A stretch of 64,000 nucleotides of DNA from a candidate division KSB1 bacterium (GTDB taxonomy: Bacteria; Zhuqueibacterota; Zhuqueibacteria; Oleimicrobiales; Geothermoviventaceae): the NCBI GenBank assembly GCA_034506315.1, contig JAPDPT010000007.1:1-64000 (forward strand), in the 5' to 3' direction. Position numbers and translations under genes: made by a program. The notes under the pieces are model-generated. The model searched no databases, was not told where the DNA came from, and worked only from the letters and a program-made list of their open reading frames with translations. Below, piece after piece: positions 1,593-3,109 of this stretch. Each line of letters starts with the position of its first letter. Within the stretch, counting starts at the first letter, position 1.

Positions 1593-1621
1593 TTGCATTC
1601 GTGCGCAGAATCTTTTAGATT
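1593..1621 (+). promoter_or_regulatory. Putative sigma70-type promoter for the met operon leader
   Basis: TTGCAT at 1593-1598 and TAGATT at 1616-1621 are separated by 17 bp. The -10 matches the one in the much stronger promoter at 39157-39185, but the -35 is weak. Transcription would begin near 1628 and give a leader of about 200 nt before metY. A second weak candidate (TTGGAC, 17 bp, TACAGC) starts about 40 bp downstream. Seen in sequence only. Confidence 0.35.
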
Positions 1622-1667
1622 CGCCGCCGATAAATTGGACAAGGACCATGACCAGGATACAGCGCGG

Positions 1668-1745
1668 ATGAGAGTCACACTTCCTCGAAAGTCGATGTAC
1701 ACCATGCGCAAGCCCTTCGGCTGGGGAGGGGCGCGGTCCATGTAG
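1668..1745 (+). CDS. Candidate 25-residue leader peptide with four Met codons, upstream of metY
   Basis: A short ORF starts with ATG at 1668 and stops with TAG at 1743-1745. Met codons occupy positions 1, 10 (1695-1697), 13 (1704-1706) and 25 (1740-1742). A weak Shine-Dalgarno AGGA lies at 1654-1657. The ORF ends 23 nt before a rho-independent terminator, and its second half overlaps a segment able to form an antiterminator. The position of Met13 is where a stalled ribosome would leave bases 1720-1732 free. This placement is the reason for the call. The peptide itself has no known homologue that I recognise, and a chance ORF is a real alternative. Confidence 0.4.
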
Positions 1746-1800
1746 CTTTCTCGGATTCGCAAACCAAAGCCCCTTCCCAGCAACGGGAAGGGGCTTTTTT
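1706..1800 (+). promoter_or_regulatory. Putative transcription attenuator of the metY-metX-lysC-asd operon
   Basis: Three mutually exclusive pairings can be drawn. (1:2) GCGC 1706-1709 with GCGC 1731-1734, enclosing AGCC 1711-1714 with GGCT 1719-1722. (2:3) 1720-1732 with 1769-1781, 13 consecutive pairs including one G-U. (3:4) the terminator stem, 1766-1778 with 1785-1797, followed by T's. This is the arrangement of ribosome-mediated amino-acid attenuators. I see no conserved core of SAM-I, SAM-II, SAH or T-box elements in the leader. Regulation by methionine is an inference from the downstream genes and the Met codons of the overlapping ORF. Confidence 0.45.
1766..1800 (+). terminator. Rho-independent terminator in the metY leader
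   Basis: A perfect 13-bp stem (1766-1778 with 1785-1797) with a 6-nt loop is followed by a run of T's ending at 1800. It lies only 31 bp before the metY ATG. It either ends the ppx-HD transcript or acts as the conditional terminator of the met operon. Confidence 0.85.
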
Positions 1801-1831
1801 ATTGCTTCGCCCGCACCGGGAGGAGGAAAGG

Positions 1832-3109
1832 ATGAGCGACGGCTTACGTTTCGAAACTCTCTGTCTACACGGCGGTCACGAAGTGGACCAGCAAACGCTT
1901 TCCCGAGCTGTACCGATCTATCAGACGACCTCCTACCTCTTTCGGAACACCGAACACGCCGCGCGTCTCTTCGAGCTGAAGGAATTCGGCAACATCTACA
2001 CCCGCATCATGAACCCCACCACCGAGGTCTTCGAAAGACGAATGGCTCTTCTGGAAGGAGGCATAGGGGCTCTCGCCACAAGCTCGGGACAGGCGGCTGC
2101 CGCCCTCATCTTCGCAACTCTCGCCGAAGCCGGCGACGAGATCCTCTCCTCCTCCAAGATCTACGGCGGGACGTATAATCTGCTCAAAGTCACCCTAAGG
2201 CGCTTTGGCATCCAGACTCGATTTGTGGGTGATCCCACGCCCGAGAACTTTGCGGCCGCCATCACCCCTCGCACCAAAGCCCTGCACGTGGAGACGATCG
2301 GCAATCCGCGGGGGGACGTAGCCGACATCCCCGCTTTGGCCGCACTGGCCCATCGCCACGGCATCCCCCTCGTCGTCGACAACACCGTTGCCACCCCCTA
2401 TCTCTGCCGACCCATCGAGCTCGGGGCGGATATCGTGTACCACTCTGCCACCAAGTTCATTGGAGGTCACGGCACCTCCATCGGCGGTGTCATCATTGAC
2501 TCCGGCAAGTTCTCCTGGGACAACGGCCGCTTTGCCTCCTTCACGGAGCCCAGCGAGGGCTACCACGGCCTGCGCTTTTGGGAGACATTCGGCAACAGCG
2601 CCTTCATCGTGAAGGCGAGGGTGGAGTTTCTGCGCGATCTCGGGCCAGCTCTGAGTCCGTTCAATTCGTTTCTCTTCCTCCAAGGACTGGAGACTCTCCC
2701 TCTGCGGATGCAACGTCACTGCCAAAATGCCATGGCCGTGGCGAACTACCTGCGCCAACACCCAAAAGTCGCCTGGGTCAGTTACCCCGGGCTGGCGGAC
2801 CATCCGACTCACGCTGTTGCCCAGCGCGTCCTGCGCAACGGCTTCGGGGCGATTGTGACCTTCGGGATGAAGGGCGGCAAAGAGCAGTCGCGACGCGTGG
2901 TGGACCACGTGAAGCTCATTTCCTTGCTGGCCAACATCGGAGATGCCCGCACGCTCATCATTCATCCGGCTACTACCACACACCAACAGCTTTCGCCGGA
3001 AGAACAGCTCAGCACCGGCGTGACCGATGACCTGATTCGACTCTCGGTGGGCTTGGAGCACATCGATGACATCCTCGAGGACCTGGACCAAGCGATCGCC
3101 AGAGCATGA
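1832..3109 (+). CDS. metY: O-acetylhomoserine sulfhydrylase (aminocarboxypropyltransferase)
   Basis: A 425-residue PLP enzyme of the Cys/Met metabolism fold-I family. It makes homocysteine from an activated homoserine ester and sulfide by direct sulfhydrylation. The Schiff-base lysine is K208 in [10 protein letters not shown]. Other family marks are [13 protein letters not shown] near 56-68, SSGQAA at 84-89, and a C-terminal [11 protein letters not shown]. Its length matches MetY (about 430) rather than the roughly 380 of MetB/MetC. The start is the ATG at 1832, preceded by a strong GGGAGGAGG at 1818-1826; the TTG at 1802 abuts the terminator and is unlikely. It overlaps metX by 4 bp (ATGA), so the two are translationally coupled. 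Confidence 0.95.

Follow-up and report, generated by a model that had tools for sequence, protein, structure and literature searches.

A candidate methionine-codon attenuator upstream of metY-metX-lysC-asd in a KSB1 bacterium and its relatives

The metY-metX-lysC-asd locus and its leader

The window, that is, the whole stretch of 64,000 nucleotides analyzed here (contig JAPDPT010000007.1 of a candidate division KSB1 bacterium), carries near its start four genes that were identified with NCBIfam models as metY, metX, lysC and asd, the genes named in the original prediction. They are preceded by a leader region and, farther upstream, by a Ppx/GppA-like gene that consists of two overlapping ORFs (33-812, exopolyphosphatase-like, and 781-1449, HD-domain). 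The features of the locus are the following.

1593..1621, + strand: putative promoter-like element, TTGCAT (1593-1598), 17 nt, TAGATT (1616-1621)
about 1628, + strand: transcript start predicted from the promoter-like element
1648..1671, + strand: 7-codon upstream ORF read from the sequence, MTRIQRG and a stop codon
1668..1745, + strand: leader peptide ORF of 25 codons, stop codon at 1743-1745
1695-1697 (Met10) and 1704-1706 (Met13), + strand: putative regulatory codons, kept in the congeneric species compared (L002)
1706-1709 with 1731-1734 and 1713-1718 with 1725-1730, + strand: predicted protector hairpin, -14.5 kcal/mol
1720..1732, + strand: antiterminator 5' arm, GCTGGGGAGGGGC, beginning 13 nt past the Met13 codon
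1769..1781, + strand: antiterminator 3' arm, GCCCCTTCCCAGC, common to the terminator 5' arm and loop
1766..1803, + strand: intrinsic terminator, stem 1766-1778 with 1785-1797, T-rich tail
about 1818-1826, + strand: putative ribosome binding site of metY
1832..3109, + strand: metY, O-acetylhomoserine sulfhydrylase (TIGR01326, 676 bits, above cut-off)
3106..4230, + strand: metX, homoserine O-acetyltransferase (NF001209, 478 bits, above cut-off)
4233..5660, + strand: lysC, aspartokinase (NF006570 / TIGR00657, above cut-off)
5660..6706, + strand: asd, aspartate-semialdehyde dehydrogenase (TIGR00978, 419 bits, above cut-off)

The original prediction placed in this leader a short ORF with Met codons at positions 1, 10, 13 and 25, an antiterminator of 13 continuous pairs with one G-U, and a terminator followed by a T-run, and all three are present at the positions proposed, the terminator stem consisting of 13 continuous pairs with a predicted energy of -24.8 kcal/mol. 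The protector held up in its essential property, namely that the predicted hairpin (1706..1734) overlaps and excludes the antiterminator arm; its pairing differs slightly from the proposed 1706-1714 with 1719-1734. Until the 3' arm of the terminator is made, the protector has a lower predicted stability than the antiterminator, so that the basal level of expression would depend on kinetics. The antiterminator run of the window outscores 200 of 200 shuffles (p 0.005), and no foreign terminator pairs as well with its 5' arm. The stop codon of the MTRIQRG ORF overlaps the start codon of the leader ORF, which makes translational coupling to the leader peptide possible; this small ORF was not seen in the congener.

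A simple scan of the window found a single intrinsic terminator of 7 bp or more on the + strand, the leader hairpin (1766-1797). Intrinsic terminators are scarce throughout these 64 kb, with one on the + strand and three on the - strand, the mirror of the leader hairpin included among the latter, and given so few of them, this genome may seldom use such terminators. The promoter-like element, with 7 of 12 matches, was missed by a simple consensus scan.

The Rfam scan of the window and of the window locus yielded no riboswitch or T-box match in the leader; neither a SAM aptamer of any Rfam class nor the T-box model was matched. Two weak minus-strand matches in the window to the sRNA families SpF66 and ar14, both below the gathering score, were discounted because they mirror the terminator hairpin.

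Conservation of the leader and its distribution

The leader is conserved in a congeneric species (79% identity, E 9e-21), which encodes the peptide MRLVTLPKKMFLMRKPSSWGGAGRT, ending at a stop codon, at the same place and retains Met10 and Met13, the start codon, the antiterminator with an identical core, the terminator and the promoter-like element. The last of these has the same hexamers and spacing (TTGCAT-17-TAGATT) and is equally far from the leader ORF; thus, a transcript start between 1550 and 1665, on which the original prediction depended, is compatible with the conserved element at 1593-1621. In a codon alignment of the two leaders made by hand, 11 codons are identical, 6 are changed synonymously and 8 non-synonymously, with two whole-codon gaps. 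Met25 is replaced by Thr in the congener and was rejected as a regulatory codon, so only Met10 and Met13 count as such. Another species of the same family (L003) has a leader peptide that ends in TMTILTKIKHMGMTMRMMLGIVHREGAPPPS before the stop codon and a 12-bp antiterminator. The ORF and the antiterminator are thus both conserved in close relatives, as the original prediction supposed.

More distant relatives were sought in sets of metY orthologues from the phylum of the window, from the class of a Melioribacter MAG (Ignavibacteria) and from the class of a Calditrichota MAG. In all three sets, short ORFs dense in Met codons lie upstream of metY and reach up to an intrinsic terminator. The original prediction looked to metY orthologues for short ORFs with Met codons, and those that were found are far denser in Met than the one in the window, the far stronger versions before distant metY or metX genes including MAHTMTMCTMMMTTMMCM and MMQMCMMMCCCM. 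Examples before metY, each given up to its stop codon, are:

L004: ending in STMAHTMTMCTMMMTTMMCMSHQTFRRCVPC
L009: MKPLNIKSIASLINMCMCMCQCIKMFGRRSG
L182: MNFSFTDMMMHNMMMQMMICNHERCVFR
L142: ending in MAMCMMMCMPGWQSGRDRYM, as LSIAMCMMMCMPGWQSGRDRYM
L179: ending in MMQMCMMMCCCMRGTCENVLLPS

Altogether, we found about 40 leaders of this kind, a few of them weak (L132, L169), in 33 genomes that belong to the phylum of the window, Calditrichota, Ignavibacteria and, in one case, another Bacteroidetes MAG (L110). A promoter-like element of the TTGAC[AT]/TAxxxT type lies upstream of most of the other leaders. A close metY is missing from three species that belong to the window's class but to another genus; here the leader, with a conserved Met run, stands before metX (peptides ending in LLMRSMAMGMFMLVPPWEGATAM, FAFAMVLAMGMWLLHPPGKGPR and FAFAMGMLMLHPPGKGPC before the stop codon). 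To judge from these sequences, because metX is preceded by the leader in this genus, the association follows methionine and not one gene. No Met leader was found at metE-like loci (PF01717) in the phylum of the window. A candidate from Aneurinibacillus (L049), in which the Met codons are scattered, was excluded, being probably a false positive.

The density of Met codons far exceeds the random expectation. In 96 regions upstream of metY, taken without prior selection, 20 contain a short ORF that is linked to a terminator and has 4 or more Met within 12 codons, compared to 0.07 in dinucleotide shuffles with the terminators kept fixed, and at 5 Met the respective values were 14 and 0.0. Cys was the next most enriched residue (6 against 0.13 in shuffles), and most other residues were near their shuffled values. 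A strict scan of both strands of other loci, from which the already scanned metY leaders were excluded, returned only leaders of this kind. Within the last 30 codons, ATG occurs 164 times in the frame of the ORF and 8 and 5 times in the other two frames, an excess that is partly a selection effect because the leaders were chosen for in-frame Met. Met makes up 18% of the leader residues and Cys 8%.

Unlike Met content, antiterminator pairing played no part in the choice of leaders. When the stretch past the Met cluster was paired without gaps with the terminator of the same leader, the best result was significant against shuffles (p <=0.05) in 23 of 31 cases; some of the 8 leaders in which no significant ungapped antiterminator was found may use interrupted helices. 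The gap between the Met cluster and the antiterminator arm has a median of 13 nt and is mostly 9-19 nt, as expected if a ribosome halted on the Met codons is to leave the arm exposed. The arm sequences vary widely among leaders (GGGAAGGGGCTC, TCCGGAAGGG, GTGAGAATG, CCGGTGTGTGCC, ATGGAAAGG) and the terminators vary with them, so that the covariation envisaged in the original prediction takes the form of antiterminators that complement their own terminators while the paired sequence changes from leader to leader. The pairing score averages 22.2 with the own terminator and 16.3 with foreign ones, the own terminator being the best in 10 of 27 cases. In some leaders (L004, L181, L182), the terminator contributes its loop and 3' arm to the antiterminator rather than its 5' arm. 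A test based on duplex energies was dropped, since the segment can pair with both terminator arms and pairing was overstated; the ungapped runs and the foreign-terminator control took its place.

Proposed mechanism and alternative explanations

We propose, with a probability of about 0.86, that the leader in the window acts by ribosome-mediated transcription attenuation, with the supply of charged elongator Met-tRNA as its signal. Several features point in this direction: the leader ORF stays in frame in the congener, with synonymous changes, and precedes a biosynthetic operon; an intrinsic terminator stands before the first structural gene; the antiterminator is exclusive with the terminator and within reach of a ribosome on the control codons; in the window copy, the protector pairing excludes the antiterminator; and the leader is rich in codons for the amino acid that the operon makes, a property that is strong across the family and weak in the window. 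With two usable internal Met codons, the window leader appears from its sequence to be a weak family member, among the weakest, and a search by Met density would have missed it. It is assigned as an attenuator because of its conservation in the congener and its dense relatives; it is mainly these relatives that support the methionine attenuator of the original prediction, and the assignment assumes that the weak window copy works like them.

Under this interpretation, transcription would start near 1628 and translation at 1668. When methionine is plentiful, the ribosome would reach the stop codon at 1743-1745, the arm 1720-1732 would be covered or held in the protector, and the terminator would form, with transcription stopping near 1797-1803. 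When methionine is short, the ribosome would stall at Met10 or Met13 and block the protector; the arm 1720-1732, now free, could then pair with 1769-1781 ahead of the synthesis of 1785-1797, and RNA polymerase would continue into metY-metX-lysC-asd. There is a tension in this scheme because methionine starvation also limits the initiator tRNA, and reduced translation of the leader could blunt the response.

Because Cys codons stand among the Met codons in many relatives, those leaders may sense both sulfur amino acids. A combined sensor of charged Cys-tRNA and Met-tRNA would keep the attenuator layout unchanged, with both kinds of codons acting, and we entertain this version tentatively. The second rank of Cys in enrichment (6 against 0.13), its share of 8% of leader residues next to 18% for Met, and mixed runs such as MCMCMCQC, CCCM and MMCMM speak in its favor, but Cys is absent from the regulatory codons of three leaders (those of the window, its congener and L003), Met predominates throughout, and some of the Cys codons may be there only through a codon neighbor effect. 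It is improbable that, instead of tRNA supply, the leaders depend on a peptide-sequence-dependent arrest of the TnaC type or on a metabolite-binding RNA such as a new riboswitch, with the Met codons belonging to an arrest peptide or an RNA motif. Some peptides do share C-terminal residues (RCVPC in L004 and L181, PPGKGP in L193 and L194), but these are the codons that encode the antiterminator arm; otherwise, the peptides have almost nothing in common except for the density of Met (and Cys), the number and spacing of Met vary freely, and the separate SAM-I elements are the only Rfam matches. Least credible is the view that the hairpin simply terminates the upstream ppx/HD transcription unit and that the leader ORF and antiterminator are there by chance: the hairpin does lie about 320 nt past the HD-domain ORF, ahead of the next operon, and the window ORF by itself has few Met codons, but the congener keeps the promoter-like element between ppx and the leader, an exact 13-bp antiterminator has a p of 0.005, and the arrangement recurs before metY or metX in some 33 genomes.

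The attenuator reading also fits with the composite leaders of the relatives. In seven genomes, two Met attenuators occur in series (L005, L111, L112, L113, L118, L146, L162), and in ten, a Met attenuator is followed by a SAM-I riboswitch (L040, L046, L114, L132, L138, L148, L149, L158, L161, L169). In the Ignavibacteria and Calditrichota sets, the attenuator stands alone before about ten metY genes, and most of the other metY genes have only SAM-I or, in two instances, only SAM-I/IV. The tested loci of the window's phylum yielded no SAM riboswitch. From this distribution, the attenuator appears to be both a substitute for and a companion to SAM sensing, a pattern that supports a role in methionine control. 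Where it precedes SAM-I, expression would need both a low level of charged Met-tRNA and a low level of SAM.

Separately, in four genomes from the class of the Melioribacter MAG (L115, L120, L122, L124), a conserved peptide, MN[VI]xxLHLFYA[CS]RPVLEHxSxYFxGNFLC, with Cys near its end in places, is encoded between the terminator of the SAM-I riboswitch and metY. At many loci of the window's class and phylum, metY lies directly 3' of a short gene for an Rrf2/IscR-like regulator (for example, L013, L015, L019 and L184-L188, judged by eye from the sequence), which suggests a protein-based alternative to the attenuator.

Relation to known regulatory systems

Textbooks name only a few amino acids that are sensed by leader-peptide attenuators, and the regulators described for methionine operons are SAM riboswitches, Met T-boxes, MetJ, MetR and SahR. 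The kind of mechanism proposed here is known: it is textbook ribosome-mediated attenuation, and it shares with the enterobacterial trp, his, leu, ilv, thr and phe attenuators the leader ORF with codons for the amino acid made by the operon, the coupling to ribosome position, the protector, the antiterminator and the intrinsic terminator. What sets it apart is the control by Met, a residue with which all translation also begins and which is joined by Cys in many relatives, and the place of occurrence: the window's phylum, Calditrichota and Ignavibacteria. Such leaders often stand in series or before SAM-I. SAM-I riboswitches and Met T-boxes likewise control the same genes through premature termination, but there the RNA directly senses SAM or uncharged tRNA without a translated leader, and the window matches neither.

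The closest precedent is the leader peptide metL proposed for metNIQ of Streptomyces lividans, a short ORF (MSTTSDRTPATEATTTPGARCMCRRMCAF, then a stop codon) with Met and Cys codons on a leaderless transcript with no typical Rho-independent terminator, described from RNA-seq and sequence only (PMC8079986). It resembles the leader in the window as an ORF with Met/Cys codons before methionine genes and differs in that it belongs to a transporter operon of an unrelated lineage and has no typical terminator. Runs of Cys codons also characterize the actinobacterial cys leader peptides (PMC1262725), which involve Cys only and have no terminators, and the leader ORF of the Rhodobacterales cysS uORFC-8-2 motif (PMC8632094), again with Cys only. 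The metXZ RNA element, found before metX/metZ in beta-proteobacteria, is, like the leader in the window, a candidate attenuator with a terminator, but it is described as a pseudoknotted conserved RNA and no leader peptide is described for it (PMC4239095). Among the surveys, the one of Actinobacteria saw no conserved RNA structures in front of methionine operons (PMC1262725); the one of methionine regulation in Proteobacteria lists riboswitches, T-boxes, repressors and the metXZ RNA, and no leader peptides (PMC4239095); and the one from 2010, which adds a his case in Firmicutes, states that leader-peptide systems were then known only in Proteobacteria and Actinobacteria (PMC2965389). Methionine is not mentioned in the treatment of attenuator sensitivity by Elf and Ehrenberg (PMC1183508).

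In the searchable literature, which does not extend to subscription papers, we found no Met leader-peptide attenuator with a terminator; in that literature, the specificity for Met, the occurrence in these lineages and the pairing with SAM-I appear to be undescribed and new. A Met-codon attenuator with the full set of terminator and antiterminator in several phyla would fill a gap among the known attenuator amino acids, and it raises the question of how methionine can be sensed by ribosome stalling while the same shortage cuts the supply of initiator fMet-tRNA. An attenuator and a SAM-I riboswitch in series would be a natural two-input device that responds to free or charged methionine and to its product, SAM. 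We lean, with some reserve, toward the broader view that the Met (and Cys) attenuator family is a main regulator of the methionine pathway in the window's phylum, Calditrichota and Ignavibacteria, where it would replace or precede SAM-I, the composite leaders would test charged Met-tRNA and SAM in turn, and methionine would be sensed by translation despite slowed initiation. Apart from these lineages, in a Chloroflexi MAG (L031), a possible peptide beginning with MRHVAARACICMPERPHG precedes a hairpin upstream of metY and resembles a leader of the Cys type.
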